Made by a program: the position numbers and the translations under genes
In this document: positions 29,133-64,000 of the stretch, piece by piece
How the letters are laid out: each line of letters starts with the position of its first letter
How positions within the stretch are numbered: the stretch's first letter is position 1
Source: Prorocentrum cordatum
Taxonomy: Eukaryota; Sar; Dinophyceae; Prorocentrales; Prorocentraceae
NCBI GenBank assembly: GCA_963575745.1
Contig: CAUYUJ010015304.1
Location: 278,050-342,049 of the forward strand
Reading direction: 5' to 3'
Length of the DNA: 64,000 nt
The notes under the pieces: generated by a model
Told to the model about the DNA's origin: nothing
Database searches by the model: none
The model's input: the letters and a program-made list of their open reading frames with translations, nothing else

Positions 29133-32100
29133 TTAGGTAGGTCGCAGCAGAGCGCACGCCACCTTAGCAGCAGCTCTCGTCAGGGCAGCGCAGGCAGCTA
29201 GTTCACAGCAGGTTACCGCGCTACCTGGAGGCAAGCTCATCGCCTCCTCGGCCACATCGTGCCAATGGAAGCTGTGCGAGCTGGTGCAGGAGGAAGAGGA
29301 GGAGGAGGAGGAGGAGGAGATGGGAAAATCAACCTGCACGCTGGAACCCCTACCTACAACGCCAATCTGAAGCCACCACCCACCTCCACATCCTTCATTA
29401 CTGACACCCCCATCGAATGCACCACGGAGAGCAGTCTTACGAGTACTGAGGAACTGATCATATGCAAACCAGCGAGTAATAGTTTGGCCACCTCTGGCCT
29501 CCCACGACAATCTATCCGCACGTTCATTACCCTCACGAAAGAAATGCTTATACAGATTCTGTCCCGATGCAGGTGAGGTCAGTCCCCATCCAGACAGCAT
29601 CGATACCGTATTTTGTAGTGTTCCCACCAGTCGTACATACTGCTTGCTGCGAATCTGCCACTCACCACACATCCAGTTAACAACCGTCTTACTATCTCCC
29701 AAGATCTCCATCCCAAGACGCTCAATATTCTCACACCTCCACTCCGTTTCATTCTCATAATTAGCGGCAATACGTTCGCTAAGCCTCTCACTCATCTCTC
29801 TCTCCTCCTCCTCCTCCGCCTTCACGTGCCTCACACAAGGTGGCCTGCGTAAAACAAACAAGTCGAACAAGTGTTGCATGCCGATCACAGTCAGCAAATG
29901 TTTGCAATATTTCTCTCGGGACCCAGCGGAGCTGTCGAACGAGAGGTACCACTCACAACCAAAGAGATCGCGCAAACACCAGTCCCACACAGTATGTCCA
30001 CGGGCAGGCGCGCCCATGCTCATGCGTGCGAGATGCTTCCTATCTTTTGCAGGCAACGCTAGAATACATGTGTCCCGATGTTCCGTCCACTTCCCTCTTC
30101 CATGTAGCATGGCCGGCCTAGATATCATCCATTCACGTGACATGTCCGACTCCTCAGGTATGGCAGGCTGATCATCCGTTGTCCGCCGACGACCGCCACT
30201 CGACATCTGTGAGATCTGAGATACATGAGATGCATGAGAGGCCGCCGACACCGCCATCGCCCGAGTTTTCCTCTGACGCCGATGTGGTACCGTCTCCCCC
30301 TCCTCCTCCACTATGTGTGTTGTGTATCTCCTCACACGAATACTTGCAGCAACTGAGACATCCTTGGCCCAATCCCAACAACGAAATATCCATATCTGCA
30401 CCGCACTTCGGAATCCAAGCTCAACAAAACTCTGCCGTCCAACTTTGTATCGCCTACGTTGAAACTCAGACCAGCCTTCAGTGCTCCGCTTGCGTAGACC
30501 TGACATTAACGCCAGGCATCTACCTTCAAAAGAGTGAACAGCAGCAATGGTGGAATAGTCGGGCGTTCTGCCCTCACAGTTGAATAATAATGCAGCAATC
30601 ACTTTAGCTTGATAACGAGTAAATCTCTCAGCCAAATCAATACCAGAGCAGCGATAATAAGCGATTTCCCCAAAGAACATCTTCTGGGCTTTCTGGAGCA
30701 TGGCCTCTGAATCCGAGTGGTCCTTCCAGGTCTCCTCCAGAGTGGCACCCAGGATCTCAAACGACTGAACACGCGGCAGGACCACTTCTCGGGCCCCAAG
30801 AGCAGCGTCACAAGACGGCACCAGCACACGGATATCCTGCTCGGGGGACGGCGGGATGCCAGGCGGCGCACCAAAGTAAATATACATCAAGGATTTCGGC
30901 TTCCAGGTCATTCCTGCATTCATCAGCGGGATACTCATGTCACGCACCAGCAACTCGAGGTCAGTGCGGGTCTTCGCATACAACAGAAGATTATATGCCC
31001 AGGAATTGTGGGTCGTACGCTCACCGTTGAACATGCGCTCAAAATTTTCCAATGTGATACCGTACTGCGTATCCTGCCTCCACCTGTCAACCACATCTCT
31101 CCAGAGTACAATAGAAACTGCTAGAAAAATCATCGGCCCCTCCACTCCTCCCGTTCGAATAGCTTTGTCCCAATAGACCGCTGAAGATGCCTCGATGCCC
31201 TCGAAGCTGGCCACGCACTGATTATCCATCATGGGTTCAATCAACGCCACAATGGCTGGTATGTCAAGAGCACGAAGACAGCGCATGGCGAGGCACGGAG
31301 TGACACTATCGAATGCTGGTAAAATACCGAGGTTGGCAAGCCACAAACTGTCTCCTTTGCCCCAGACAGCGGAGTGCTGGCTGAGCCTCTTGGCAACGCT
31401 GGTGATTCCCGATGTTTTTCGTCCCGATCTGAATCCGTACAGGCATACATAGTGTCGGTGCTCCTCAATCCTCTTCTCAATCATCATCACAATACATGTC
31501 ATGTACCATTTCATAAGACACGACTGTAGACATAGTACACGTGTATATGTCAAATGTTGTATGTCCATTTCTTTAGGCATGAGCGTGGCAGCTAGTTGAC
31601 GCCAACTGTCGGGGCAACATAACCTGCGGGAATACACACCTTGGAATCTCACCAGAACACGTCGAACAGATGCCCACGAGAGCTGTTTCAACATCGTGAC
31701 AGTCACGTTGTCGGGACCTGGGGCCTTTCCCGTGGACAGCATCGCCCTCGCCCGCAGCAGGAGCGACATCGAGAACACCTCTGGGGATCCGCTTCCCGAA
31801 CATAGACCACGCAGCGACTGTAGCTCACCAAGGGTCACCTCCCTGGCCTCGGGGTCCTCCACCTTAGACTTCATGTGCCCCAATATCTCGTCCCCCCACT
31901 CCTCGCGGTTCTGGGACTCCATCCCGTTGGCAAGGATCAACGTATCCGTCTTGGCCCTCCTCCTCCTCCTCGTGTTCATTTCCGTCCTCCACCTCTGTAC
32001 TCTTGCCTCCAGCCTCCTCCTTTCTCTCCTCTTTATTTTTGAGCACCGTTTGGCCTCCTCTCTATCCCCACGACGAAGTGCTTCGCGTTTACTTTCCTGG

Positions 32101-33272
32101 GCGGCCCAGTGGATCTCGGATTTCGTTGGCACATTATTCCTGGGATTGGTATCTTTCTGGGGGGTCTCCTCGGCGGCCTTTATGAGGTCAGGTCCCAGCA
32201 TATCCAACATCTCCTGGCGATCCTCTGGGTCAGCATTTTCCTGGCACAATGCACGGTAACGACTGCCCCGATCGTCCCTGTTCTTCGCAAACTCAAGCTG
32301 CGACACCGGTTGCAAGTAGATGAATTTGCGAGCAGGCTGGGTCCGTCTCTTCGCAGACGGTGCACAAGACAAGCGAACAACTATGCAAGCGTGGTCAGAC
32401 AGCGCACGCTCGTATCTGCTGCATGGGTGCTCCGTCCAGGCGTGGCCCACTTCCGCAGGCAGCATCCAGCCTACAGTGATCTCCTGCCTGTGTAAACGAC
32501 GGCTGACACCAACATAGTCGAGTACCTTCTCCACCCCCGTACTTGATTTGAAAGTAACCCCCCTCTGCCCAAATGTGTGCTCCATCCTTATGCCCCAGAG
32601 CCCGCAGAAGTCCAGTAGGGCCCTCCTCATAGATTGCAGCCTAGACGCCCGTCGAGTTTCGAAGCCCGAGACAACCCTATGAGGTCTTGTTTTACGTGCA
32701 CCACGTTTTGTTTGAGTCATATACGGGTTGCCGTCATCCGATCCTTCCTCCATCCCAGTATCAATCTCCGTAGAATCCCCAGCAATCCCAGACGCCTCCA
32801 GAAGCCCTGATCCAGTAACTCTAAAGCCGTTGACCTCCGAATCTGGCTCGAGTTCGACGTTAGCATCTGTCAAGAAGACCAGGTCCTGCGGCTGCTTCGG
32901 GAACTTAGACCTATGTGTGCGAAGCACTTGGGATATATCAAACAATATCTGCTCATACACAGCATGTTCATGCTGTTCTTCCGTAAGGGTACGAATACTC
33001 TCATGCGGCATATATGCAACAATAACAGTAACACTAGAATAACTACAAATCACAAAACCTTTGCCACGATATGTGGCCCTGAGCGAGTCTCTCCAAGACT
33101 TAGACATGATCACCGCAGCCTTCCGACAAGTACTCCGAAAAATTGTGTAACCTCGCATGCTGAGATCACGAACTGAAAGGAACTGACACTCGCACAACCC
33201 CGCGAGTCCCACATCTAAGCGACGTAGTGAATTAATTATGTCATGGCCGTTCTCTGCACCTGCCCGACGCAC
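29133..33272 (-). CDS. LINE-B pol: APE endonuclease, reverse transcriptase, permuted RNase H
   Basis: An uninterrupted 1379-codon frame. Residues about 1-305: APE-type endonuclease, with ASWSVRR just upstream of the first Met, TDANVELE, and LSDHACIV near the end. Residues about 510-800: reverse transcriptase, with GKAPGPDNVTV, a motif A region reading LANLGILPAFDSV where the catalytic Asp is replaced by Gly, RTGGVEGPMIF (motif B), and WAYNLLLYAK where F/YxDD is expected. Residues about 1190-1379: RNase H motifs in the order GDSKTVV, HFFREGNERAD, GAFDGG, CCELAACAA, which is a circular permutation of the usual order. A poly-Ser run comes from a CTCCTC microsatellite. The frame is intact but the polymerase looks dead. 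It makes the cDNA copy at the nicked target in active relatives. Confidence 0.85.
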   Translation of the reverse strand: MRRAGAENGHDIINSLRRLDVGLAGLCECQFLSVRDLSMRGYTIFRSTCRKAAVIMSKSWRDSLRATYRGKGFVICSYSSVTVIVAYMPHESIRTLTEEQHEHAVYEQILFDISQVLRTHRSKFPKQPQDLVFLTDANVELEPDSEVNGFRVTGSGLLEASGIAGDSTEIDTGMEEGSDDGNPYMTQTKRGARKTRPHRVVSGFETRRASRLQSMRRALLDFCGLWGIRMEHTFGQRGVTFKSSTGVEKVLDYVGVSRRLHRQEITVGWMLPAEVGHAWTEHPCSRYERALSDHACIVVRLSCAPSAKRRTQPARKFIYLQPVSQLEFAKNRDDRGSRYRALCQENADPEDRQEMLDMLGPDLIKAAEETPQKDTNPRNNVPTKSEIHWAAQESKREALRRGDREEAKRCSKIKRRERRRLEARVQRWRTEMNTRRRRRAKTDTLILANGMESQNREEWGDEILGHMKSKVEDPEAREVTLGELQSLRGLCSGSGSPEVFSMSLLLRARAMLSTGKAPGPDNVTVTMLKQLSWASVRRVLVRFQGVYSRRLCCPDSWRQLAATLMPKEMDIQHLTYTRVLCLQSCLMKWYMTCIVMMIEKRIEEHRHYVCLYGFRSGRKTSGITSVAKRLSQHSAVWGKGDSLWLANLGILPAFDSVTPCLAMRCLRALDIPAIVALIEPMMDNQCVASFEGIEASSAVYWDKAIRTGGVEGPMIFLAVSIVLWRDVVDRWRQDTQYGITLENFERMFNGERTTHNSWAYNLLLYAKTRTDLELLVRDMSIPLMNAGMTWKPKSLMYIYFGAPPGIPPSPEQDIRVLVPSCDAALGAREVVLPRVQSFEILGATLEETWKDHSDSEAMLQKAQKMFFGEIAYYRCSGIDLAERFTRYQAKVIAALLFNCEGRTPDYSTIAAVHSFEGRCLALMSGLRKRSTEGWSEFQRRRYKVGRQSFVELGFRSAVQIWIFRCWDWAKDVSVAASIRVRRYTTHIVEEEGETVPHRRQRKTRAMAVSAASHASHVSQISQMSSGGRRRTTDDQPAIPEESDMSREWMISRPAMLHGRGKWTEHRDTCILALPAKDRKHLARMSMGAPARGHTVWDWCLRDLFGCEWYLSFDSSAGSREKYCKHLLTVIGMQHLFDLFVLRRPPCVRHVKAEEEEEREMSERLSERIAANYENETEWRCENIERLGMEILGDSKTVVNWMCGEWQIRSKQYVRLVGTLQNTVSMLSGWGLTSPASGQNLYKHFFREGNERADRLSWEARGGQTITRWFAYDQFLSTRKTALRGAFDGGVSNEGCGGGWWLQIGVVGRGSSVQVDFPISSSSSSSSSSCTSSHSFHWHDVAEEAMSLPPGSAVTCCELAACAALTRAAAKVACALLRPT

Positions 33273-38040: not shown

Positions 38041-38475
38041 TTTTTTTGCGGTTTGCGGTCCGCCACAAGAATCCGAATCTGAATCGGCGGAACAGTGCAA
38101 CTGAGCACCCATCACCTTAGATGGGTTGCAGCAGAGCGCACGTCACCTTAGCAGCAGTCCTCATCAAGGCAGCGCACGCGGCAAGTTCACAGCAGGTCAC
38201 CCTGCTTCCTGGAGGTAAGCTCATCGCCTCCTCGGCCACATCGCGCCAATGGAAGCGTTGCAAGAAGAAGGAGGAGAAGAAGAGAAGGAGGAGGAGGGGG
38301 GAAACAACCTGCACACTGGAACTACAACCTACGACACCAATCAGAAGCCACCACCGGCTCCACATCCTTCACTGCTGACACCTCCATCGAATGCACCACG
38401 GAGAACAGTCTTACGAGTACTGAGAAAATGGCGATACACAAAACCATCGAGTAATTGCATGGCCACCTCTGGCCA
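38041..38475 (-). mobile_element. LINE-B 3' fragment
   Basis: Homologous to 29058-29500 from the 3' end (TTTTTTTTGCGGTTTGCGG) into the RNase H region; the minus frame contains GAFDGGVSSEG and CCELAACAA, with scattered substitutions. Homology stops near 38475 at CACATGCAGTGACCAC, where unrelated sequence begins. Confidence 0.8.
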
Positions 38476-42984: not shown

Positions 42985-43317
42985 TCAATGCGAATGATCA
43001 AAGAAGTTCTGCACAACCTGTGGGAGCACATCACATACACGCTCCGCCGCTGATAACTCTGTATCTGTCACCGTGGCACTTGGTGGTAAGCACCAAGCTG
43101 CAAGATACACATCCTTGAAAGCGATGTCGGTCCGCGAGAAGATGTACTTGTTACGCAGACCGATCTGCATCCACACGCCACAGGCGCTTCCGCGGCTGCA
43201 AACAATCCCATTAAAGCCAGCTTTGATAAGGCAAGGAGTAAAACACTGAGATTCGAAGCCACTGAGGTAAAAGATATCGGCGTACACTTGGCCCTGGCGG
43301 GCCTGATGAGTCAGCAA
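42985..43317 (-). pseudogene. LINE-D RNase H, second half
   Basis: The frame, read from slightly upstream, gives REWNQSADLLTHQARQG (the late 'RE.N..AD' helix motif), then GFNGIVCSRGSACGVWMQIG (first strand, Asp replaced by Asn) and TVTDTELSAAERVCDV (Glu helix). This is the same permuted order as in LINE-B and LINE-C. A frameshift near 43350-43390 separates it from the preceding part. Confidence 0.6.
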
Positions 43318-43387
43318 GTCAGCACTTTGGTTCCATTCCCGAATAGAAAGAAAAGAAATTTCGGCCAGCCTCTGGAGGCCTCACCGA

Positions 43388-43885
43388 CTACATACTCTGC
43401 ATCTCGTCCAGCTTATTGATAAGAATGTTTACCCTTCTCTGATATACCTGAGATAACACTTTCCATTTCCCACAAAGCCAGTTGATCACTAGCAGTGAGT
43501 CCCCCTGGATGTCCAATGGCATCCCACCCGCTTCGGGGTCCCATTGTGTACAACGCATGTTATGCAACGCAATACGTCTGCTAAGTCGTTCCCTAGATGC
43601 AGGTGTGTCCTCCCGATCCTGTCCGATATGAACTCCCCCATCCTCATCAGTATTCAGGAACACAGGTACCCCCGAGGACGCCAAGCCTTTGCATTTCTTC
43701 TGGAAATACTTCAACGTACTATTAGAACAAACATGCGCGGCAAAATCCATAAAATGTTCAAAGCTCCCAACAAAGGACTCCCACCAGGATAAACCATAAA
43801 ACGATTCAAAAGAATAACACCACGAACGAAGGCCTACACTCTCCTGTCCCCCACGATGTCGTTTCAGTGAGCTGGCCTCCTTCAA
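43388..43885 (-). pseudogene. LINE-D post-RT region and RNase H first motif
   Basis: 165 codons. A Trp/Phe-rich segment (SWCYSFESFYGLSWWESF) corresponds to the poorly conserved linker between RT and RNase H. It ends with PLDIQGDSLLVINWLCGKWK, the 'GDSxxVVxW' RNase H strand with its catalytic Asp, then an alpha-helical region. The frame stops at 43388; homology continues in the next frame. Confidence 0.6.
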
Positions 43886-46399: not shown

Positions 46400-46555
46400 T
46401 CCGGCACGCGTCCACGCGTGCCTGCACGCAGCGGGCACGCATGGAGGCATACCTGGCAGCGCTTTCGAAGCGCTTGAGGCGCGCCTGCACGCGCGCAGGC
46501 ACGCATGGCGGCGTCCCTGGCAGCGCTTTCGAAGCGCTTCAGGGGGGCACCCCAC
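46400..46555 (+). repeat. CpG-rich palindromic repeat
   Basis: Two copies, about 60 bp apart, of GCACGCATGG.GGC.T.CCTGGCAGCGC followed by the palindrome AGCGCTTTCGAAGCGCTT (7-bp arms, 3-nt loop). Upstream variants of CACGCGTCCACGCGTGCC add further self-complementary words. Confidence 0.65.
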
Positions 46556-46579
46556 GGAGGCTCTGGAGTCAACCGTTTC

Positions 46580-47023
46580 AAAAGAGCGGCGGAGATGGAG
46601 GTACTTCGGGCCCACATTTGCTCTGAACTACATGTGAACGAGCACCCATATTTGGACGCTAAGATTGACTCCGCTCGAAGGGCCTTCTGGGGTCAGGCTT
46701 CTTTCTTCCGCTCCACGGCCATTCCGTTGAAAGGTAAGTATGTGAGATACGCACAGAGGGTTCAGAGTATCGTGCTTTACGCTGCAGAAGGTTGTACGGT
46801 TGATTCTTATTCTTTGAATGCCCTGCATATCTTTGAAGGCAAATGCCTGGCTGTCATGTGTCGTTGTGTACGGAGGGAGGAGGAGAGTTATGAGGAGTGG
46901 AATACGAGGAGGTATGAACGGGCAAGGCAGATATTTCATGATGCATTCTGTGCGAGTATTGTACAGAAATTCCTCCGAGTGCATTGGATGTGGGCAACCG
47001 ATGTGAATGAGTTTGCTCGATGA
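46580..47023 (+). pseudogene. Plus-strand LINE fragment, post-RT region
   Basis: The only hairpin-LINE coding piece on the plus strand. KIDSARRAFWGQASFFRS, KGKYVRYAQRVQSIVLYAAE, SYSLNALHIFEGKCLAVM and EEWNTRRYERARQIFHDA align along their length with the region after the RT palm in LINE-B and LINE-C (for example SFEGRCLALMSGL and RRRYKVGRQSF in LINE-B). No RT catalytic motifs or RNase H remain. It lies beside plus-oriented satellite-2, consistent with the fixed orientation of LINEs to the module. Stop at 47021-47023. Confidence 0.65.
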
Positions 47024-49975: not shown

Positions 49976-50050
49976 TGACTGACCCGGCTCCGACGCGCAA
50001 GGTTCCCAGAGAGTTCTCTGAGCTAAAGGCTTTACGGTGGAAGCCAGACT

Positions 50051-50544
50051 AGGCGCCGGCGGTAAGCCGTCAACCTTGGTTTTTTTGCGGTTTGCGGTCC
50101 GCCACTAGAATCCGAATCCGAATCGGCGGAGCAGTGCAACTGAGCCCCCACCATCTTAGGTAGGTCGTAGAGGAACTTATCATATGCAAACCAGCGAGTA
50201 ATAGTTTGGCCACCTCTGGCCTCCCACGACAATTTATCCGCACGCTCATTACCCTCACGAAAGAAATGCTTATACAGATTCTGTCCCGATGCAGGTGAGG
50301 TCAGTCCCCATCCAGACAGCATCGATACCGTATTTTGTAGTGTTCCCACCAGTCGTACATACTGCTTGTTGCGAATCTGCCACTCACCACACATCCAGTT
50401 TACAACAGTCTTACTATCTCCCAAGATCTCCATCCCAAGACGCTCAATATTCTCACACCTCCACTCCGTTTCATTCTCAAAATTTGCGGCAATACGTTTG
50501 CTCATCCTCTCAACCTTGGTTACCGCCGGGAGACTCGTAGAGCT
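50051..50544 (-). repeat. Hairpin module split by a truncated LINE-B
   Basis: Left half 50051-50081 and right half 50510-50544. TCAACCTTGGTT appears at 50070-50081 and 50510-50521. Removing 50082-50521 restores a module almost identical to the empty one at 36889-36944. Confidence 0.9.
50082..50509 (-). mobile_element. 5'-truncated LINE-B with internal deletion
   Basis: Matches LINE-B from its 3' end to about 29150, then jumps to about 29450 and continues to about 29775, where it is 5' truncated. The minus frame keeps EILGDSKTVVNWMCGEWQ and HFFREGNERAD but the deletion removed the following GAFDGG strand and Glu helix. Nearly identical to LINE-B elsewhere, so a young insertion. Confidence 0.85.
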
Positions 50545-51857
50545 TCCTTGCCGCCTGCTGTGCCTGAAAGCTCTGTAGCTTGCCTACAGCTCGAGTTAAG
50601 CTGAAAAAACCGAGAGCACCTACCAACATCCCGACTCATAGTGAATAAGTTGTTCCATCGATTCTCGAATTCTAACTCACTCGCGGACCCGCCTGATGTC
50701 TCCAAATCGATTCCTGCGATTACTAACCCTGCAGACCCCTTAGAGCCCGAGTTAAGTGCAGAAAACCGAGAGCACCTCTGAAGACAACTCGAACAATACG
50801 AATAGTTTCGCGTATCTAGCTTGGGCAGCAGATCGAGTTCAGAGCTCTGAATGCGACAGGCGGACGCGACTGATGTCTCCGAATCGATCCCAGTGATTAC
50901 CAGCCCCGCAGCCCACTCACAGCTCGAGTTAAGTGCAGAAAAGGGACAGCACCTCTCAAGATGACTCGAAGAACACGAATAGTTTTGCGGACATTGCTCG
51001 CGCAGCACACCGAGTTCTGAGCTCTGGATTTGGCAGGCGGACGCGCCTGATGTCTCCGAATTGACTCCTGTGAGTACGAGCCCTGTAGCCCCCCTACAGC
51101 CCGAGTTTAGTGCAGAAAACTGACAGCACCTCTCAAGATGACTCGAATAGTTTCGCGAACCTAGCTCGTGCAGCAGACCGAGTTCAGACCTCTGGATGGA
51201 ACAGACGAACGCGTCTGATGATTCGCAATCGATCTCTGTGATAATGAGCTCTGTAGCTGTCCTGTATCTCGACTTAAGTCCAATATACCGACAGCGCGTA
51301 TTAAGATGACTCGAAACGGCCGATCCCGCCACAGTGCTTTTCGATAGTAATATTCACCCGATCGAGCTAAGATCAAGATGGCGAGCGGGAATAAGATCGA
51401 ATATCACGGGAAAAATTACTAGAGCTCAAACGAATGTTCAAATTTTGAAAACAAAACTGGAAACCGGCGGTAAACCGTCAACCAGGTTACCGCCGGGCAC
51501 CTCGTAGAGCTCTCTTGTTGCACAGCGCTCCTCAGAACACATGAAGGAAGCTTCTGAAGCGAGAGCCAAAAAACCTGAAAAATCACGATTTTTCGGCTTC
51601 TATCCAAAATCGGTTCCTGCAAGTCTTTCGATAGAAATATTGCAGCTACGGACCTGAAAATTTTACTGGCAAACGCGGCATAACCCAGTACACGTGAAAA
51701 AAATCTGGTTCCTCAAAATGAATTGTCAAATATCTTTCAAATCTCAGCAAAACCGACCCAAAGTCACAACTTTGTCTCTTATGGCCGGGTCGGCCAACTA
51801 GCTCCACCCCGCGCCGGAATTCCTCTAGCTCATCGATGCCGAAGAGCTCTACGAGGC
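50545..51857 (-). repeat. Satellite-1 variants followed by a satellite-2 unit
   Basis: Satellite-1 variant units to about 51450 with a GATCAAGATGGCGAGCGGGAATAAG junction, an empty hairpin module at 51458-51512, then one satellite-2 unit to about 51857. Confidence 0.75.
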
Positions 51858-51889
51858 ACTGGCACCGGCGGTGAACCGTCAACCTGGTC
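51858..51889 (-). repeat. Left half of hairpin module occupied by the LINE-C pair
   Basis: GCACCGGCGGTGAACCGT then CAACCTGGTC (51880-51889), followed at once by the LINE-C 3' end. Confidence 0.85.
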
Positions 51890-51913
51890 TGCGGTCTGCG
51901 GGGCCCGATTCGA

Positions 51914-51928
51914 GCCCCCTTAGGGGGC
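51914..51928 (-). promoter_or_regulatory. LINE-C 3' UTR stem-loop
   Basis: GCCCCCTTAGGGGGC, six base pairs and a three-base loop, preceded by GGGGCCCGATTCGAG. Identical in copy 2 (58048-58062) and decayed in the non-autonomous element. 3' stem-loops of stringent LINEs are read by their own RT; that role is inferred here. Confidence 0.5.
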
Positions 51929-52120
51929 AGGGCCAGCGGTAGGATTACCTACAGGCAACCTAAGCACTAACAGCGGAGCTGTGCGAATATACAAGTCAGC
52001 GTAGCTGTGCAGATATGATACAACAGCGTAGCTGCACCGGAATATACACACATCAAAGAAACAGCGGGGGTAAGCATGTATCTTACAACAGCGGAGCTGT
52101 GCAGATATAGTACACAACAA

Positions 52121-55100
52121 TCACCGACCAAGCTGTACGTGTATACACATCTCGGCAATGCCATTGAGAAGCGAATGTGCAGCTGCCAACTCAGCCTGTG
52201 TGATCGTGCAGTGGCTAGGGATCATGAAACCTCTGCGGCCAACTCCAGGGTGCCATCCGCCCTGCACAAGTCCAGGGGGAAGCTGGTGAGGAGGAAGAGA
52301 GGGAACAAGATAAGCATCCAGAACCCAGCCACACGAAGTGCCACGCTCACACCGCCCACCATCGAAAGCTCCTGTAAGTGCACGAACAATATAATGACCC
52401 GATCTAATATGATAAAGAGTGTTATGATTCCAACGAACATCAGAAGTTACTTTACCCTCACGTGCAAGATGTGTCTCATGGTCCGCCTCATCGTTGCCCT
52501 CCCTGTACACCCATTTCCACATATCCCTTCCCACTTCAGCCGTGACAAGATGATGGTCCTCACTCATTCTGTGAAGGCGGTTCTGCATACCCTTGATCGT
52601 GCGGCGATATACTTCATTGTGACAGCGATATCGCCCATTAAGCCAGCGCACAACACACTGGCTATCCCCACGGAGCTCCAAGCCATATCCTCCCCCTTCC
52701 CCACGCCAAGTGGTTTCATCATCATTTATCGCGGCCAGTCGTTTCGCCACCCGTTCATTTTCACGTCGTTGCTGCTCCTCTGACTTCTCCTCCCCCTCCT
52801 CCTCCTGCTTGAACTCACCCGTGAAAGGATCCCGAAGAAGGCAGAAATCGAAGAGATCATCCAAGTCCAGGGCGGCCAGGGTACCCACCAGGAAAGAACG
52901 CCAGCCAGTTTCATTCCAGACCATCGTGCGATCCCAATGAACCCCTTGCGTGTGCTCGAAGACTTCGTACCAAGGCCTAAGTCCCGTCAAGACTCGATGA
53001 CGACAAGCTCTAGTAAACCGTCGGCCCCCAGGGAGAGCTCTAACATGCACGTCACGCTGCTCAGTCCACTCCCCCGACGCGTGCATCATCGTCAAGGCGC
53101 TCTGCCTACTGGCAGTGGGCAATCCTCCTTCCTCCTCCCGTGCATAGGTATGGCGTACCCGCTTACGAACAGGCTCATGTACATGTTGTGAATCATGATG
53201 CTCATGTGCCGTGTTCTCCGATATACGTCTGCGAACTGACCTATTCTCCAAGGAAGATGCGCTCTGTGCCTTTCTCCTACACGAACTGTTAAGCTGTCTG
53301 GCATTCGGGGTAGGCGAGGGAAACGATAACTCCAAGGAGCGCTGCGAACCACCAAAAATATCAGGATCTCGTGGCTCATGATAAAGAATGCCCTGACTGA
53401 GTGCGTCCTCATCCACCCGACTATGCTCCTCATGGATCGTGCTCACAACATGTTTGGCGAAGAGCCACTGGCGATGAAGGGCGAGCTGGACCATCGAAGG
53501 CTTACGGGCCCACTTCAATAAGCGACGACCACCTTTAATCCTCCTGCCCCAGTACTCTCCCCAGGACTCCGTGATCTTCTTTTTGAGACGTCTCATGGTG
53601 GACAAGAAGTTGCCTTCAGCTGCATGTATCTGTTGGAGACTACCCGAATCCAAAGTCGTACCCTCCAAACCGTACAGAAAGCAACTTCTGACCCTGCTAT
53701 CATAACGCTGAAACTTACAACGAAGCGGAACCACGGGCGACGAGTAAAAAGAAATCTCACTCATAAAGACCCGCCGTGCCTTCTCCAGTCGGTGCTTAAT
53801 GTCTTCATGATCCTGAAATCGTACGTCCAATAGCGTGCCAAGAACCTCCATCCTCTCCACCTGCCTCACTATCATCTCCTCCGAAGGGCCTGCGGCGCTC
53901 TGGGAAGCCCCACGAGAACGCTTCCTACCCACCTCAGCAGGCAGGAGCCCCGGCACAGGCAGGCGGATATCCTGCAATGGACCTTGGACGCCACAAGCCA
54001 AGAACTCCATCGAAGATGCTTTCCAGTTGAAACCGAAGCGGTGGAGGACCCCAGTCAAGTCCTCGAGCATATGGGTCAATTCTCGCCTGGAAGCTGCTGC
54101 CAGCAAAATATTGTCTGCCCACAACCAGTGGTTGACCAAGAGATTGGATGCCTCATCAGTGAGCCTGACGCCGTATCCAGACTGCCTCCAACCTGCCGTC
54201 ACTGGTGCAAGCACACGAAGGGTCTGGGCAACAAATAGCAAAGGCGCCTCCAAGGAACCTGTACGAATGCAAGTATCCCACGAGATAGTCGTAGAACACT
54301 GTTGGAAGCTGATCTCTGCCGCGTTACAAGCATAACTCTCAAAGACAGCATACACAAGGGCAGGATGGACATGATGGAATAAAAGCGCCTCTGCTGCACA
54401 TCTAACCGTGAAAGTATCAAACGCCTTTTCAATATCAGCACTTGCAAGGTAAAGACTCTCCTCCTTCCCCCACACAACGCCGTGTTGAGCAAGACGTTTG
54501 AGGGGGGCCGTGACCTCATAACATTTGTGACCCGCGATAAAGCCATATAAGTTGCAACCTGGCGGTGCAGCCTGCCGAACGCGGTGTTCTAGAAGTATAC
54601 ATAGACAACTGCTATACCACTTACCAAAATGAGAAAGAAGTGAAAGGGCAGGCGTTTCTTCAAAATCACGAGCCTTGGGAATCTTAGGCATCAAGCATAC
54701 CAAGATCTCTCTCCAGGACTTCGGTGAAACATGTTTCTGATCATACAGCAAACGGAATAAGGTAAGTATGTGTCGGAGGGCTTCCCATGGCAATGCTTTG
54801 AGCACCGATGACGACACCCCGTCTGCACCTGTTGCCCGTCCTTCCCTGAGTCTAGACCGTGCCTCCAGCAAGAGACCCATGTTGATCGGGCTGCGGTGGG
54901 GCTCTCCGGAGTCTCGCAGGGCCTTACACTGGTTCTTAAGCTCATCCAAGCACACGTTGGTGTCCTGTCGGTGGGGATCGCTAGAGTACCTCAGGAGCCC
55001 ATGACGCCGAAGGCCCTCAATCCACTTCTCCTGGTCACGCGTGAGGACCCCGTCCACATACATGTGCGTAATGACAGGCCTACGACGGACACCGTCACGA

Positions 55101-56179
55101 ATACGATAAAGCTCACATGCACGATCATGACGCTTACGAACTCGACGCCACCGCTTAGCTGTCCCCTTATACTCCTCCTGGACTCTCTCGTACTCCTCCT
55201 GCCCCACGTTAGCCCCGCCATCTCGTGCCACCCTCCACCTCTTCCTGACCTTAAAGAACTCCTCCTTAATCAGTAAATCCTCCTCCGAATATCTGGGATA
55301 ATCTGAAACAGGCTGACCATGAGAACGGGAGATATCCAAAGTCTCACTGGCACCTTCAAGTATACTCTGTGTCATGACCTCAAAACCTACGTCCGTGTGG
55401 ATCTGATTCACGAGCTCGGGCTGGCAGATCGCTCTCTCCAAGCCGGCTGTCTGCTGGAGCTCGAACCCTGGCTGAAGCTTCCAGGTCTTGAGCTGAGGCC
55501 GACGTCGATACCTCAACTGAGCATGCTGGGCGGGCATCTCGGCACACAAGAGCTTGTGATCGCTAAACGTCCTTTCCGTCGCCTCCGACCGTGGGACCTG
55601 GGACGGCACAACCCAAGAACAAGTCACCTCTGGAGTCATCCAAGAAGCTGGGACCGCAAGATAATCATAGACGTGCTCGTATGTGCTCGAATTGTGTCTC
55701 CAAGTAGGCTGACGATTCCCAAAAGTGTTGGCTAGCTGCAACTTGAGGGCCCCCATGGTCTTCAGAAAGGCCCCCGAGTACATCTCCCTCATCCTGTTGG
55801 CTCTACTTTCGTCACCTCCACTAGACCTCCCCCTCTTACGTATAGGCCCATTCACCGCCTCCCCCGTAACCTCCACCCCATTGATCCTGTGGTGCGGGAA
55901 AACCTCCACGTTGGCGTCAGCCGAAATAACAACCTCCTCAATGTGAAATCGCTTTTTGGCCGCAGAGACATGTGCAACAAGATCCGATAACACGTCCGTA
56001 TAGAGCTTGAAACTAGCGAGAAACCCTTCAGGAGAACGGCGTGCTTCACCCTGTGCACCCCGCTCAGACTCCTTATGAGGGAGATAGACCGAAACGAAGA
56101 TGAGCTTGCGAAAGATCGCAATGACCCAGCGACGACCACACACCACATCGATAGCAGATGTCTCCATACACCTCGGCAC
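52121..56179 (-). CDS. LINE-C pol: endonuclease C-half, RT, permuted RNase H
   Basis: 1352 uninterrupted codons; the frame opens at a GTG, and the first ATG is four codons in. Residues 1-230: most of the APE endonuclease, with LIFVSVYLPHKES, VVISADANVEVF, YDYLAVPASW and TERTFSDHKLLCAEM. Residues about 440-760: RT with GRATGADGVSSSV, ASADIEKAFDTF (motif A Asp present), RTGSLEAPLLF, and WADNILLAAASRREL in place of F/YxDD, so the second Asp is Asn. Residues about 1165-1352: RNase H motifs ordered LRGDSQCVVRWL, WVYREGNDEADHE, GAFDGGRCERG, ITQAELAAAHSLL, a circular permutation. The first strands of the endonuclease lie in another frame upstream (finding). This is the best-preserved pol in the window. 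Confidence 0.85.
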   Translation of the reverse strand: MPRCMETSAIDVVCGRRWVIAIFRKLIFVSVYLPHKESERGAQGEARRSPEGFLASFKLYTDVLSDLVAHVSAAKKRFHIEEVVISADANVEVFPHHRINGVEVTGEAVNGPIRKRGRSSGGDESRANRMREMYSGAFLKTMGALKLQLANTFGNRQPTWRHNSSTYEHVYDYLAVPASWMTPEVTCSWVVPSQVPRSEATERTFSDHKLLCAEMPAQHAQLRYRRRPQLKTWKLQPGFELQQTAGLERAICQPELVNQIHTDVGFEVMTQSILEGASETLDISRSHGQPVSDYPRYSEEDLLIKEEFFKVRKRWRVARDGGANVGQEEYERVQEEYKGTAKRWRRVRKRHDRACELYRIRDGVRRRPVITHMYVDGVLTRDQEKWIEGLRRHGLLRYSSDPHRQDTNVCLDELKNQCKALRDSGEPHRSPINMGLLLEARSRLREGRATGADGVSSSVLKALPWEALRHILTLFRLLYDQKHVSPKSWREILVCLMPKIPKARDFEETPALSLLSHFGKWYSSCLCILLEHRVRQAAPPGCNLYGFIAGHKCYEVTAPLKRLAQHGVVWGKEESLYLASADIEKAFDTFTVRCAAEALLFHHVHPALVYAVFESYACNAAEISFQQCSTTISWDTCIRTGSLEAPLLFVAQTLRVLAPVTAGWRQSGYGVRLTDEASNLLVNHWLWADNILLAAASRRELTHMLEDLTGVLHRFGFNWKASSMEFLACGVQGPLQDIRLPVPGLLPAEVGRKRSRGASQSAAGPSEEMIVRQVERMEVLGTLLDVRFQDHEDIKHRLEKARRVFMSEISFYSSPVVPLRCKFQRYDSRVRSCFLYGLEGTTLDSGSLQQIHAAEGNFLSTMRRLKKKITESWGEYWGRRIKGGRRLLKWARKPSMVQLALHRQWLFAKHVVSTIHEEHSRVDEDALSQGILYHEPRDPDIFGGSQRSLELSFPSPTPNARQLNSSCRRKAQSASSLENRSVRRRISENTAHEHHDSQHVHEPVRKRVRHTYAREEEGGLPTASRQSALTMMHASGEWTEQRDVHVRALPGGRRFTRACRHRVLTGLRPWYEVFEHTQGVHWDRTMVWNETGWRSFLVGTLAALDLDDLFDFCLLRDPFTGEFKQEEEGEEKSEEQQRRENERVAKRLAAINDDETTWRGEGGGYGLELRGDSQCVVRWLNGRYRCHNEVYRRTIKGMQNRLHRMSEDHHLVTAEVGRDMWKWVYREGNDEADHETHLAREGKVTSDVRWNHNTLYHIRSGHYIVRALTGAFDGGRCERGTSCGWVLDAYLVPSLPPHQLPPGLVQGGWHPGVGRRGFMIPSHCTITQAELAAAHSLLNGIAEMCIHVQLGR

Positions 56180-57242
56180 AAGATGGCAGCCCGTCCCCCC
56201 ACGTTCTCCCCCTCATCTGCCGAGCGATGTATATCCCAACCCGCATCTGCAAGATCCAAGTCGTGTAAGAACTGGCTCTCTTGGACCCCGACGATGGAAA
56301 TCTTTAATTCGGCAATGTGATTCATGCACTCGGAGGTGTATCTTCCCAACCTCCGAACGTTCCAACCTCCAACAGAAGCTGGGCACCGCCACGAGCTGCT
56401 TTTCACCTGCCTCTCCCAAGTCTTGCAGTCCAGACCTGAATCGATGTGCTGGACCCGCTCGGCCACGAACTTCCATCCCACGGTATCCGTCCACGTACCT
56501 ACACACACTTTATCACTCTGACTATCCTTCTGCAGGTATGCCCAAGCCTTCGCAGGCCCTTCAGGCTCAAAAGTGATGAGAGCGGTGGCAACAGTCTTGA
56601 GCTTATGAAAGATCGCAGTCGCCTTGCGAGTCTCCCCAACTCGACGTCGGTCCTGTGGTGCCGGTTGGACAAACCAACCGAGGTGTCGATCTTTGTATGG
56701 TCCAAAACTGTTCTGGCAACCGACCAGATCAGGGCAAGAACTGGACCAGGCTGAGGCCCACTCGTTGCGCACTTCCCAGACCGTCTCTTTCGAAGTCCCT
56801 GGCATGAAGTATATGCGAAACTTGGTCACACCAAATCGATTGGAAGCGATATCCCCGTCCGTCCTACCCCTGTCGAAGATCTTAGTAACGTCACTATCCC
56901 GTGCTTGCGATAGTGTGTACAACTTACCTATCATGTTCCTAACCGTGGCGACCTGGATCTTGGCCTTATCTCGAGTTTCTACCTTTCGGGGGTCCTCTTG
57001 CGCGAAGCCGCTCACCTGGATCCAAGGCGGGACATGTGGTACAAAGGGCCTCTGGAAGTCAGCCGTACGAGAGTCACGAGTAGACGCACCTCCCAGAGAT
57101 GATGAATCTGCCCAGGGATCCCTAGAGTTCATCTGAGCCTGAAGTGCTTTGATCTCTTTCGCCTGGGCCTCCTGAGCTGAACGAATCTCCTGCACCGACG
57201 AAGCAATAGGGGCAACCTGCTCTGATACCCTCGTTTGAATCT
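55852..57242 (-). CDS. LINE-C gag-like C-part fused to endonuclease N-terminus
   Basis: Continuous frame downstream of the UAG at 57244-57246. It starts with a coiled-coil end (IRSAQEAQAKEIKALQAQM), then a globular RNA-binding-like region (VTKFRIYFMPGTSKETVWEV, FHKLKTVATALITFEPEG), then the first strands of the endonuclease: VGGWNVRRLGRY, AELKISIVGVQESQF (with the catalytic Glu of 'xQE') and GRAAILC near 56195. After that the frame is no longer protein-like although it stays open to 55852; homology continues in the pol frame. In copy 2 the equivalent region is split again by a stop and a 1-base deletion. Confidence 0.7.
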
Positions 57243-57243
57243 G

Positions 57244-57924
57244 CTATTTGATGTCAACAGAGTTCTGCATGAGCATCCTCTGCATATCTTCACGCATGGC
57301 ATCGAACTGTGCACGGAGCATAGTGGCCAGATCTCCTGCTTCACCTCCTCCTCCTCCACTACTACCACTTCCATTCCCACTACCTGCCCCTCCTCCACCA
57401 CCCTCGGCATCACCAAGAAGATGTCTATCTTCCAAGAGCTTCCTCTGTCGCTTCTCTCCGTTGCCCTCGATTCCCATATCATCATCAGAAGTCGGAACCA
57501 TCTTTCTCTTAAGATCACACTGCCAACAACTGGAAGTAGAATACCGATAAGCTCGACAAGTAGGGCACCTACTAGCCTCCAGATCACGATAGTGTTCGTC
57601 CTCGAGTTCTTCAAGAAACTTATCCCAAACCCGTGAAGGTGAATGTCGGTGCGTGATGAGATCTGCTGCAACAAAAACGGTCAAAGTGTCCTTCTCAACT
57701 GCCAGAGCAAAACTGGTAAGTGCTGGGCCCCCAAGAGTATCGCAAGCAAACAGCAAAGATACAAGTGCAACCAGTAGCGGCCTTGCGCCTCCAGCGGCAC
57801 GTGTGGGCTCACCCACTAACACAAGCAGAGAACAAATGCAGCGACCTATGCGCAGCACGTCCAGGAGGTTGCAGCCGACGAAGTACACGAACTTATGGGC
57901 CAGCGCGCACCCACGCGCGCCCAC
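57244..57924 (-). pseudogene. LINE-C gag-like N-part ending at a premature UAG
   Basis: No ATG at the open end, so the real start is uncertain. Contains CPTC-x10-CWQC, a four-cysteine zinc-binding pattern, then KRKMVPTSDDDMG, a glycine-rich linker and a coiled coil (MLRAQFDAMREDMQRMLMQ). In copy 2 the same frame continues through EQIQTRVSEQVAPIASSV; here GAG has become TAG at 57244-57246 by a single substitution. The region probably binds element RNA and oligomerises. Confidence 0.65.
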
Positions 57925-58252
57925 GGCCGCCCAGGGGGCAGCCTGAGGAGACAGGCTTGAGGAGGCCCCCGACGGGCCAGGCCACCGCTGAGATCCCCGA
58001 GGAGGGACAGCGGCAACCTGGTCTGCGGTCTGCGGGGCCCGATTCGAGCCCCCTTAGGGGGCAGGGCCAGCGGTAGGATTACCTACAGGCAACCTAAGCA
58101 CTAACAGCGGAGCTGTGCGATATACAGGTCAGCGTAGCTGTGCATATATGATACAACAGCGTAGCTGCACAGGAATATACACACATCAAGAAACAGTGGG
58201 CTCAGCATGTATCTTACAACAGCGGAGCTGTGCAGATATTATACACAAACAA

Positions 58253-61200
58253 TCACCTGCCAAGTTGTACGTGTATACACATCTCGGCAATGCCATTGAG
58301 AAGAGAATGTGCAGCTGCCAACTCAGCCTGTGTGATCGTGCAGTGGCTAGGGATCATGAAACCTCTGCGGCCAACTCCAGGGTGCCATCCACCCTGCACA
58401 AGTCCAGGGGGAAGCTGGTGAGGAGGAAGAGAGGGAACAAGATAAACATCAATAACCCAGCCACACGAGGTGCCACGCTCACACCGCCCACCGTCAAAAG
58501 CTCCTCTAAGTGCACGAACAATATAATGACCCGATCTAATATGATAAAGAGTGTTATGATTCCAACGAACATCAGAAGTTACTTTACCCTCACGTGCAAG
58601 ATGTGTCTCATAGTCCGCCTCATCGTTGCCCTCCCTATACACCCATTTCCACATATCCCTTCCCACTTCAGCCGTGACAAGATGATGGTCCTCACTCATT
58701 ATGTGGAGGCGGTTCTGCGGTTCCCTTGATCGTGCGGCGGTATACTTCATTATGACAGCGATATCTTCCATTAAGCCAGCGCACAACACACTGGCTATCC
58801 CCACGGAGCTCCAAGCCATATCCACCCCCTTCCCCACGCCAAGTGGTTTCATCATCATTTATCGCGGCCAGTCGTTTCGCCACCCGTTCATTTTCCCGTC
58901 GTTGCTGCTCCTCAGACTTCTCCTCCCCCTCCTCCTCCTGCTTGAACTCACCCGTGAAGGGATCCCGAAGAAGGCAGAACTCGAGAAGATCATCCAAGTC
59001 CAGGGCGGCCAGGGTACCCACCAGGAAAGAACGCCAGCCAGTTTCATTCCAGACCATCGTGCGATCCCAATGAACCCCGTGCGTGTGCTCGAAGACCTCG
59101 AACCAAGGCCTGAGTCCCGTCAAGACTCGATGACGACAGGCTCTAGTAAACCTTCGGCCCCCAGGGAGAGCTCTAACATGTACGTCACGCTGCTCAGTCC
59201 ACTCCCCCGACGCGTGCATCATCGTCAAGGCGCTCTGCATACTGGCAGTGGGCAATCCTCCTTCCTCCTCCCGTGCATAGGTATGGCGTACCCGCTTACG
59301 AACAGGCTCATGTACATGTTGTGAATCATGATGCTCATATGCCGTGTTCTCCGATATACGTCTGCGAACTGATCTACTTTCCAAGGAAGATGCGCTCTGT
59401 GCCTTTCTCCTACACGAACTGTTGAGCTGTCTGGCATTCGGGGTAGGCGAGGGAACCGATAACTCCAAGAAACGCTGCGAACCACCAAAAATATCAGGAT
59501 CTCGTGGCTCATGATAAAGAATGCCCTGACTGAGTGCGTCCTCATCCACCCGACTATGTTCCTCATGGATTGTGCTCACAACATGTTTGGCGAAGAGCCA
59601 CTGGCGATGAAGGGCGAGCTGGACCATCGAAGGCTTACGGGCCCACTTCAATAAGCGACGGCCACCCTTAATCCTCCTGCCCCAGTACTCTCCCCAGGAC
59701 TCCGTGATCTTCTTTTTGAGACGTCTCATGGTGGACAAGAAGTTGCCTTCAGCTGCATGTATCTGTTGGAGACTACTCGAATCCAGAGTCGTACCCTCCA
59801 AGCCGTACAGAAAGCAACTTCTGACCCTGCTATCATAACGCTGAAACTTACAACGAAGCGGAACCACGGGCGACGAGTAAAGAAATCTCACTCATGAAGA
59901 CCCTCCGTGCCTTCTCCAGTCGGTGCTTAATTTCGTCATGATCCTGAAATCGTACATCCAATAGCGTGCCGAGAACCTCCATCCTCTCCACCTGCCTCAC
60001 TATCATCTCCTCCGAAGGGCCTGCGGCGCTCTGGGAAGCCCCACGAGAACGCTTCCTACCCATCTCAGCAGGCAGGAGCCCCGGTACAGGCAGGCGGATA
60101 TCCTGCAATGGACCTTGGACGCCACAAGCCAAGAACTCCATCGAAGATGCTTTCCAGTTGAAACCGAAGCGGTGGAGGACCCCAGTCAAGTCCTCGAGCA
60201 TATGAGTCAGTTCTCGCCTGGAAGCTGCTGCCAGCAAAATATTGTCTGCCCACAACCAGTGGTTGACCAAGAGATTGGATGCCTCATCAGTGAGCCTGAC
60301 GCCGTATCCAGACTGCCTCCAACCTGCCGTCACTGGTGCAAGCATACGAAGTGTCTGGGCAACAAACAGCAAAGGCGCCTCCAAGGAGCCTGTACGTATG
60401 CAAGTATCCCACGAGATGGTCGTAGAACACTGTTGGAAGCTGATCTCTGCCGTATTACAAGCATAACTCTCAAAGACAGCATACACAAGGGCAGGATGGA
60501 CATGATGGAATAAAAGCGCCTCTGCTGCACATCTCACCGTGAAATTATCAAACGCCTTTTCAATGTCAGCACTTGCAAGATAAAGACCCTCCTCCTTCCC
60601 CCACACAACGCCGTGTTGAGCAAGACGTTTGAGGGGGGCCGTGACCTCATAACATTTGTGCCCCGCAATAAAGCCATATAAGTTGCAACCTGGCGGTGCA
60701 GCCTGCCGAACGCGGTGCTCTAGAAGTACACATAGACAACTGCTATACCACTTACCAAAATGAGAAAGAAGTGAGAGGGCCCGCGTTTCTTCAAAATCAC
60801 GAGCCTTGGGATTCTTAGGCATCAAGCATACCAAGATCTCTCTCCAGGACTTCGGTGAAACATGTTTCTGATCGTACAGCAAACGGAATAAGGTAAGTAT
60901 GTGTCGGAGGGCTTCCCATGGCAATGCTTTGAGCACCGATGACGTCACCCCGTCTGCACCTGTTGCCCGTCCTTCCCTGAGTCTAGACCGTGCCTCCAGC
61001 AAGAGACCCATGTTGATCGGGTTGCGGTGGGGCTCTCCAGAGTCTCGCAGGGCCTTACACTGGTTCTTAAGCTCATCCAAGCACGCGTTGGTGTCCTGTC
61101 GGTGGGGATCGCTGGAGTACCTCAGGAGCCCATGCCGCCGAAGGCCCTCAATCCACTTCTCCTGGTCACGCGTGAGGACCCCGTCAACATACATGTGCGT

Positions 61201-62310
61201 AATAACAGGCCTACGACGGACACCATCACGAATACGGTAAAGCTCACATGCACGATCATGACGCTTACGTACTCGACGCCACCTCCTTGCTGTCCCCTTG
61301 TACTCCTCCTGGACTCTCTCGTACTCCTCCTGTCCCACGTTAGCCCCGCCATATCGTGCCACCCTCCACCTCTTCCTGACCTTAAAGAACTCCTCCTTTA
61401 TCAGTAAATCCTCCTCCGAATATCTGGGATAGTCTGAAACAGGCTGACCACGGGAACGGGAGATATCCAAGGTCTCACTGGCACCCTCAAGTATACTCTG
61501 TGTCATGACCTCAAAACCTACATCCGTGTGGATCTGATTCACGAGCTCGGGCTGGCAAATCGCTCTCTCCAAGCCGGCTGTCTGCTGGAGCTCGAACCCT
61601 GGCTGAAGCTTCCAGGTCTTGAGCTGAGGCCGACGTCGATACCTCAACTGAGCATGCTGGGCGGGCATCTCGGCACACAAGAGCTTGTGATCGCTAAACG
61701 TCCTTTCCGTCGCCTCCGACCGTGGGACCTGGGACGGCACAACCCAAGAACAAGTCACCTCTGGAGTCATCCAAGAAGCTGGGACCGCAAGATAATCATA
61801 GACGTGCTCGTATGTGCTTGAATTGTGTCTCCAAGTAGGCTGACGATTCCCAAAAGTGTTGGCTAGCTGCAACTTGAGGGCCCCCATGGTCTTCAGAAAG
61901 GCCCCCGAGTACATCTCCCGCATCCTGTTGGCTCTACTTTCGTCACCTCCACTAGACCTCCCCCTCTTACGTATAGGCCCATTCACCGCCTCCCCCGTAA
62001 CCTCCACCCCATTGATCCTGTGGTGCGGGAAAACCTCCACGTTGGCGTCAGCCGAGATAACAACCTCCTCAATGTGAAATCGCTTTTTGGCCGCAGAGAC
62101 ATGTGCAACAAGATCCGATAACACGTCCGTATAGAGCTTGAAACTAGCGAGAAACCCTTCAGGAGAACGGCGTGCTTCACCCTGTGCACCCCGCTCAGAC
62201 TCCTTATGAGGGAGATAGACCGAAACGAAGATGAGCTTGCGAAAGATCGCAATGACCCAGCGACGACCACACACCACATCGATAACAGATGTCTCCATAC
62301 ACCTCGGCAC
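58253..62310 (-). pseudogene. LINE-C copy 2 pol, broken by two frameshifts
   Basis: Collinear with the copy 1 pol. Frame breaks: a 2-base deletion near 59880 (GAGTAAAGAAATC against GAGTAAAAAGAAATC in copy 1) and a 1-base net insertion near 58715 (CTGCGGTTCCC against CTGCATACCC). The pieces are 59848-62310 (endonuclease and RT, with DIEKAFDNF and WADNILL), 58692-59891 (post-RT to GDSQCVV) and 58253-58858 (REGNDEAD, GAFDGG, AELAAA). The substitutions that separate the copies are scattered. Not able to make a full protein as it stands. Confidence 0.8.
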
Positions 62311-62636
62311 AAGATGGCAGCCCGTCTCCCCACGTTCTCCCCCTCATCTGCCGAGCGATGTATATCCCAACCCGCATCTGCAAGATCCAAGTCGTGTAAG
62401 AACTGGCTCTCTTGGACCCCGACGACGGAAATCTTTAATTCGGCAATGTGATTCATGCACTCGGAGGTGCATCTTCCCAACCTCCGAACGTTCCAACCTC
62501 CAACAGAAGCTGGCACCGTCACGAGCTGCTGTTCACCTGCCTCTCCCAAGTCTTGCAGTCCAGACCTGAATCGATGTGCTGGACCCGCTCGGCCACGAAC
62601 TTCCATCCCACGGTATCCGCCCACGTACCTACACAC
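61983..62636 (-). pseudogene. LINE-C copy 2 endonuclease N-half
   Basis: Carries VGGWNVRRLGRC, VVGVQESQFLHDL and GRRAAILC, and shares with copy 1 the switch to another frame shortly after AAILC. Separated from the gag-like frame by a TGA and a missing G near 62510-62525 (GCTGGCACC against GCTGGGCACC). Confidence 0.7.
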
Positions 62637-63988
62637 ACTTTATCACTCTGACTATCCTTCTGCAGGTATGCCCAAGCCTTCGCAGGCCCTTCAGGCTCAA
62701 AAGTGATGAGAGCGGTGGCAACAGTCTTGAGCTTATGAAAGATCGCAGTCGCCTTGCGAGTCTCCCCAACTCGACGTCGGTCCTGTGGTGCAGGTTGGAC
62801 AAACCAACCGAGGTGTCGATCTTTGCATGGTCCAAAACTGTTCTGGCAACCGACCAGATCAGGGCAAGAACTGGACCAGGCTGAGGCCCACTCGTTGCGT
62901 ACTTCCCAGACCGTCTCTTTCGAAGTCCCCGGCATGAAGTATATGCGAAACTTGGTCACACCAAATCGATTGGAAGCGATATCCCCGTCCGTCCTACCCC
63001 TGTCGAAGATCTTAGTAACGTCACTCTCCCGTGCTTGCGATAGTGTGTACAACTTACCTATCATGTTCCTAACCGTGGCGACCTGGATCTTGGCCTTATC
63101 TCGAGTTTCAACCTTTCGGGGGTCCTCTTGCGCGAAGCCGCTCACCTGGATCCAAGTCGGAACATGTGGTACAAAGGGCCTCTGGAAGTCAGCAGTACGA
63201 GAATCACGAGTAGACGCACCTCCCAGAGATGATGAATCTGCCCAGGGATCCCTAGAGTTCATCTGAGACTGAAGTGCTTTGATCTCTTTCGCCTGGGCCT
63301 CCTGAGCTGAACGAATCTCCTGCACCGACGAAGCAATAGGGGCAACCTGCTCTGATACCCTCGTTTGAATCTGCTCTTTGATGTCAACAGAGTTCTGCAT
63401 AAGCATCCTCTGCATATCTTCACGCATGGCATCGAACTGTGCACGGAGCATAGTGGCCAGATCTCCAGCATCACCTCCTCCTCCTCCACTACTACCACTT
63501 CCATTCCCACTACCTGCCCCTCCTCCACCACCCTCGGCATCACCAAGAAGATGTCTATCTTCCAAGAGCTTCCTCTGTCGCTTCTCTCCGTTGCCCCCGG
63601 TTCCCATATCATCATCAGAAGTCGGAACCATCTTTCTCTTAAGATCACACTGCCAACAACTGGAAGTAGAATACCGATAAGCTCGACAAGTAGGGCACCT
63701 ACTAGCCTCCAGATCACGATAGTGTTCGTCCTCGAGTTCTTCAAGAAACTTATCCCAACCCCGTGAAGGTGAATGTCGGTGCGTGATGAGATCTGCTGCA
63801 ACAAAAACGGTCAAAGTGTCCTTCTCAACTGCCAGAGCAAAACTGGTAAGTGCTGGGCCCCCAAGAGTATCGCAAGCAAACAGCAAAGATACAAGTGCAA
63901 CCAGTAGCGGCCTTGCGCCTCCAGCGGCACGTGTGGGCTCACCCACTAACACAAGCAGAGAACAAATGCAGCGACCTATGCGCTGCAC
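62519..63988 (-). CDS. LINE-C copy 2 gag-like ORF
   Basis: 489 codons, open at the right edge without an ATG (first listed codon is GTG), so start unresolved. Order: hydrophobic N-part (PLLVALVSLLFACDTLGG), acidic stretch, CPTC-x10-CWQC zinc-like motif at about residues 98-115, Gly-rich linker (about 155-172), coiled coil (about 175-250, uninterrupted here, unlike copy 1), then a mixed alpha-beta region with FGVTKFRIYFMPGTS and ALITFEPEGPAKAWAYL. Ends at a TGA where copy 1 has TGG, so separation from the endonuclease is a lesion of this copy. Probable RNA-binding, multimerising role. Confidence 0.7.
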   Translation of the reverse strand: MQRIGRCICSLLVLVGEPTRAAGGARPLLVALVSLLFACDTLGGPALTSFALAVEKDTLTVFVAADLITHRHSPSRGWDKFLEELEDEHYRDLEASRCPTCRAYRYSTSSCWQCDLKRKMVPTSDDDMGTGGNGEKRQRKLLEDRHLLGDAEGGGGGAGSGNGSGSSGGGGGDAGDLATMLRAQFDAMREDMQRMLMQNSVDIKEQIQTRVSEQVAPIASSVQEIRSAQEAQAKEIKALQSQMNSRDPWADSSSLGGASTRDSRTADFQRPFVPHVPTWIQVSGFAQEDPRKVETRDKAKIQVATVRNMIGKLYTLSQARESDVTKIFDRGRTDGDIASNRFGVTKFRIYFMPGTSKETVWEVRNEWASAWSSSCPDLVGCQNSFGPCKDRHLGWFVQPAPQDRRRVGETRKATAIFHKLKTVATALITFEPEGPAKAWAYLQKDSQSDKVCVGTWADTVGWKFVAERVQHIDSGLDCKTWERQVNSSS

Positions 63989-64000
63989 GTCCAGGAGGTT

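Follow-up and report, generated by a model that had tools for sequence, protein, structure and literature searches.

The C-terminal domain encoded by open reading frame 2 (ORF2) of several long interspersed nuclear elements (LINEs) of Prorocentrum cordatum is read here, with a probability of roughly 85%, as an archaeal-type RNase H of type 1 that has undergone natural circular permutation. The elements were analyzed in a stretch of 64,000 nucleotides (assembly GCA_963575745.1, contig CAUYUJ010015304.1, positions 278,050 to 342,049), referred to below as the window and numbered from its first letter. All LINE open frames named lie on the minus strand of the window. The reading rests on the order of the motifs, their conservation, the homology of the first half of the domain, the order of elements in the predicted fold, and purifying selection between two copies of the element LINE-C.

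ORF2 of LINE-C (52121-56179, 1352 residues) comprises an endonuclease-like N-terminus, a putative reverse transcriptase, and the permuted RNase H at its C-terminus. The C-terminal motifs follow in the order GDSQCVVRW, YREGNDEAD, GAFDGG, and TQAELAAA, corresponding to b4-aE-b1-b2-b3-aA (b, strand; a, helix). GDSQ was located at residue 1171 (Asp1172), RE.N..AD at 1226 (Arg1226, Asp1233), FDGG at 1272 (Asp1273), and AEL at 1329 (Glu1330). The first half of the domain (52391-52720, minus strand) holds b4 with Asp1172, aB, aD, b5, aE with Arg1226 and Asp1233, and a linker, while the second half (52124-52390, minus strand) holds b1 with Asp1273, b2, b3, and aA with Glu1330. The core topology of RNase H is given as bbbababa (passage of PMC1079889). 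The sequential order b1-b2-b3-aA-b4-...-b5-aE of a type 1 archaeal-like RNase H (aRNH) was not found here, whereas the D-E-D-R-D set and the similarity to the C-terminal half were; because its order is swapped, the domain was treated as a relative of the aRNH family in circularly permuted form and not as an ordinary member.

The same order was present in LINE-B, in the degenerate LINE-D, and in C2, the tandem copy of LINE-C. LINE-B is a diverged lineage with an ORF2 of 1379 residues (29133-33272), in which GDSKTVV, FREGNERAD, GAFDGG, and TCCELAA follow one another, with active-site positions Asp1193, Asp1253, Asp1287, and Glu1357 and with CEL replacing AEL. Its first half (b4-aE) occupies 29436-29753 and its second half (b1-aA) 29136-29435, both on the minus strand; a serine-rich insertion, seen as a serine run, lies in the b2-b3 loop of the latter. 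In LINE-D, the b4 part of the first half is found in one frame (43391-43549, minus strand), and aE together with b1-b2-b3-aA, carrying REWNQSAD, GFNG, and TDTELSAAE, in another single open frame of 131 residues (42988-43380); GFNG has Asn at the position of the first Asp. The permuted domain of C2 (58256-58853, minus strand) contains a single frameshift within the first half.

These motif positions, though on the minus strand, agree with a preliminary description of the window, which had given the permuted order for LINE-C at these sites and reported it for LINE-B and LINE-D as well. It had also stated that LINE-A keeps the FDGG strand at its extreme C-terminus. The strand is indeed present, but more is retained than had been stated, namely the second half (38120-38409, minus strand), split by a frameshift. 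The DNA of this remnant (38474-38029) was 84.6% identical to LINE-B across 456 columns, and a leucine/serine/phenylalanine-rich stretch was observed at the position of the b2-b3 loop. The permuted order does not occur in every copy, since B2 (50035-50583) lacks nearly all of the second half. B2 was 97% identical to LINE-B across 343 nucleotides of the first half (50170-50475, minus strand), and about 300 nucleotides were missing, with them almost the entire FDGG-AEL half; behind this gap, the match to LINE-B resumes for 102 nucleotides.

When residues 1130-1352 of LINE-C were used as a query, four proteins (P0001-P0004) were obtained at E <= 0.01 among 821 candidates, with 59–61% identity and 97–98% coverage for P0001-P0003 and 39% and 92%, respectively, for P0004. 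The permuted order was found in all four. The domains of P0002 and P0003 are identical, so that the four relatives represent three distinct domain sequences. From residue 415 onward, P0003 equals P0002 at 984 of 985 positions, and residues 1-414 of P0003 differ from the N-terminus of P0002, to which they seem by eye to be unrelated. With the LINE-B domain as a query, no relative was found at E 0.01 among 1,022 candidates. In the domain alignment, identity to LINE-C was 31% for LINE-B, 39% for P0004, and 28% for the LINE-D piece. Frameshifts break several copies, which could point to an assembly error, a misread frame, or a chimeric copy; such an explanation is hardly credible, however, as the order is common to three diverged window lineages and to proteins from other contigs, and LINE-C, LINE-B, and those proteins carry it in open frames. 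The earlier view that an order shared by three diverged lineages is no accident of assembly was supported.

The five positions of the D-E-D-R-D set were invariant in all five rows of the family alignment, from which the degenerate LINE-D was left out. The Arg of this set marks archaeal-like RNases H, according to passages of PMC4640811 and PMC5348765. A regular expression for a paired FDGG..AEL, composed after the motifs had been seen, matched once in each of five of the six proteins, always after GDS and RE.N..AD; LINE-B was not matched because of its CEL. The same expression matched 2 of 12,000 shuffled 90-residue windows; of 62 canonical RNases H, retained from 63 fetched loci for archaeal-type RNase HI, only 31 were matched.

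By sequence, the first half clearly corresponds to the C-terminal half of RNase HI of the archaeal type. In hhalign comparisons with archaeal-type RNase HI, the native domain (five members) reached E 5.5e-13, with the C-terminal half alone covered, and the first half by itself reached E 7.6e-14. The NCBIfam model for ribonuclease HI, NF041175, matched the LINE-C domain at E 4.8e-6 (model positions 72-134 of 143) and the LINE-B domain at E 0.0011, this match to the first half being below the NCBIfam cut-off. A search of the PDB with the domain profile returned RNase HI of Sulfolobus tokodaii at E 0.0011, spanning b4 to aE. With whole proteins as queries, Pfam detected RNase H in none of LINE-C, LINE-B, and P0001-P0004 at E up to 1; in the cut-out domains RVT_3 was below the cut-off, with a weak E of 0.018 for LINE-C.

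For the second half, hhalign gave short matches (P 0.03-0.06) at the corresponding canonical positions, the FDGG region being placed on b1-b2 with the native profile and the AEL region on aA with the half-2 profile. A two-block scan was applied to the five-member family alignment (1,289 columns occupied in at least three members), with canonical b1-b2 and b3-aA as blocks and a loop of free length between them, at most 45 columns long and chosen after the insertion had been seen. The sole strong peak, 12.95 bits, fell in the second half and ended at residue 1344 of LINE-C; in the same region, a shoulder ending at residue 1326 reached 3.21 bits, and the best value elsewhere was 1.10 bits. None of 400 column shuffles reached the observed score (mean 1.16, largest 10.42). 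The preliminary description had named a complete FDGG-AEL pair upstream of GDS as a sign of a double domain with losses. No second pair was found there, either by the regular expression in the six proteins, which hold at most one pair each, or by the scan over the 1,289 columns, which peaked in the second half only.

The structure prediction called for in the preliminary description was carried out with AlphaFold and gave the permuted order b4-aB-aD-b5-aE-linker-b1-b2-b3-aA. The model had a predicted template modelling score of 0.69, with low confidence for about the first 100 of 293 residues, and the second half alone reached a pLDDT of 88.1 in the best of five models. VIA aligned the second half alone, with weak Z values in each case, to residues 3-69 of 4h8k (65 aligned, 2.5 Å), 1-70 of 3aly (62 aligned, 2.5 Å), 1-69 of 3u3g (67 aligned, 2.8 Å), and 0-67 of 3hst (64 aligned, 2.6 Å). 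With Foldseek, the whole model matched 3aly over 86 columns (probability 0.99, E 0.013). From the predicted fold and their positions in it, the four acidic residues would be expected to converge.

Several results weigh against a permuted RNase H. Similarity of the second half to the N-terminal half of archaeal-type aRNH was significant in the two-block scan but was recognized neither by Pfam and the PDB profile nor by the canonical hidden Markov model and the plain gapped scan. The structural matches to RNases H were weak and were not ranked above unrelated rows, and the top matches of the whole model were unrelated folds, also weak. These results would fit an FDGG-AEL segment that is an unrelated bbba domain with chance RNase H-like motifs. 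Such a domain is nevertheless very improbable: a significant canonical N-half peak occurs nowhere else, N-halves of RNases H appear repeatedly in the VIA list, and no other N-half for the first half was found in the protein. Circular permutation, as originally proposed, is supported by both halves, the first matching the C-terminal half of RNase H by sequence and the second aligning, though weakly, to about residues 1-70 of solved RNases H.

The chain order would be identical if half 1 of one ORF2 molecule paired with half 2 of another, forming a domain-swapped dimer in which both active sites are of the ordinary kind. The shorter stretch between aE and b1 in LINE-B would favor such an arrangement, the spacing from the last to the first Asp being 34 residues there, compared with 40 in LINE-C and 38–40 in P0001-P0004. 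The single chain, on the other hand, was predicted with fair confidence, although a monomer prediction is compatible with swapping, and we regard the dimer as unlikely.

Selection was assessed between LINE-C and C2. The two copies (51877-57870 and 58011-64000) lie head to tail with about 140 bases between them and are 97.4% identical over 5,996 columns; the second reaches the end of the window, and its ORF2 (58256-62343) carries two frameshifts and falls into three frame pieces. Among aligned codons, 62 synonymous and 27 nonsynonymous differences were counted before the domain, and 8 and 3, respectively, in each of its halves. With 22–30% synonymous differences expected without selection, the synonymous excess was significant in half 1 (P 0.0005-0.0022) and in half 2 (P 0.0016-0.004). 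This result, from one pair of copies of which one is broken, points to purifying selection acting on the second half at the protein level.

The selection in both halves, together with five active-site positions intact in all five aligned members, argues against two decayed tandem RNases H, the first without its N-half and the second without its C-half, persisting as a non-catalytic structural or RNA-binding remnant. Precedents for such a remnant exist, as passages of PMC5348765 describe a catalytically dead second RNase H kept in retroviral and Tat-type elements, and passages of PMC5603734 describe LINE reverse transcriptases able to displace RNA and dispense with RNase H. Even so, there seems to be little chance that decay accounts for the domain. 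The permuted RNase H is probably active. That relatives elsewhere retain the swapped order suggests that this rearrangement of so widespread an enzyme is real and has been maintained.

In the proposed circular permutant, the chain would start at the old b4 and run to the old C-terminal helix, from which a linker (about 22 residues in the LINE-C model) joining the old ends would lead into the old b1-b2-b3-aA, with the new C-terminus directly after aA. The D-E-D-R-D residues would meet in one ordinary two-metal active site, and the domain would degrade the template RNA of the cDNA hybrid during reverse transcription. The RNase H of LINEs is thought to clear template RNA from this hybrid, and many LINEs depend on the host enzyme (passages of PMC5348765). 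The simplest and most likely route of origin would be a tandem duplication of RNase H, after which the first copy lost its N-half and the last its C-half; no intermediate of this route was found. It appears reasonably likely that a whole LINE lineage depends on an RNase H that is naturally permuted and catalytically active and became fixed through duplication and truncation.

RVT_1 matched LINE-C at E 2.6e-6 with 27.7 bits, short of the curated cut-off of 29.6, was also below the cut-off in P0001-P0003, and gave no match in LINE-B or P0004 in Pfam. Motif C of the reverse transcriptase is usually F/YADD; LINE-C and P0001-P0004 have WADN, with Asn replacing the second Asp in each of these proteins. 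LINE-B has an intact frame of 1379 codons and all active-site residues of RNase H, yet it seems to lack two Asp residues of the reverse transcriptase, the first one of motif A (LGILPAFD) and that of motif C (WAYN), and this reverse transcriptase looks dead. An SDH motif, a possible sign of an APE-type endonuclease N-terminal to the reverse transcriptase, was present in LINE-C, LINE-B, and P0004; no N-terminal endonuclease was matched by Pfam. Two further fragments were observed in the window: an older second-half relic downstream of LINE-B (28722-28907, minus strand; family profile E 1.2e-6, tblastn E 2.9e-5), and a fragment of a LINE of the same family on the plus strand (46478-47020; profile positions 698-855, family profile E 4e-36).

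RNase H is a very common fold and a marker for retroelement classification. The new chain ends, between aA and b4, would fall within the region that forms the folding core in E. coli RNase H. If the permutation is true, the fold can be opened between aA and b4 while under selection, and these LINEs offer a natural test of the role of topology in folding and catalysis. Since linear profiles detect just half of the domain, such LINEs would tend to be scored as lacking RNase H, and surveys with such profiles may miss it here, given the absence of Pfam matches in whole proteins and the NCBIfam match below the cut-off. The preliminary description knew of no permuted RNase H in LINEs, and this holds so far: no earlier description of one was found in the titles and abstract openings of the open-access matches listed, a scope outside which most subscription papers, preprints, and Repbase lie. 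The term "permut" is absent from the main text of the RNase H superfamily survey PMC3985635 and from that of PMC5603734 and PMC5348765. Passages of PMC1079889 mention kinase families of one fold group possibly related by circular permutation, and hold nothing further on permutation.

Among known systems, the L1 elements of plants and oomycetes and the Utopia LINEs likewise carry an archaeal-like aRNH, which in the L1 groups of plants and oomycetes lies at the C-terminus of ORF2 (passages of PMC4640811 and PMC5348765); unlike in the present elements, no permutation is mentioned for them in the main text of PMC5348765, a comparison made by description and not by alignment. Tandem RNases H, the type of intermediate needed by duplication and truncation, are described for Tat, Archon, and Chronos long terminal repeat elements and for retroviruses (passages of PMC5348765), whereas in the LINEs studied here the strands and helices make up a single complete set. 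Archaeal-type RNase HI (Sulfolobus tokodaii ST0753, PDB 2ehg/3aly, NF041175) resembles the LINE domain in the sequence of the half from b4 to aE, in the Arg of the D-E-D-R-D set, and in residues 1-70 of 3aly, to which the second half of the permutant weakly aligns. It differs in that the LINE domain has its halves swapped, a longer b2-b3 loop, a new linker between aE and b1, and a fusion behind a reverse transcriptase. Circular permutants of RNase H with a chain rearrangement of the same kind have been made in the laboratory. Passages of three papers examined contain no description of a permuted RNase H. In contrast to the laboratory forms, the LINE permutant would be natural and common to diverged elements.
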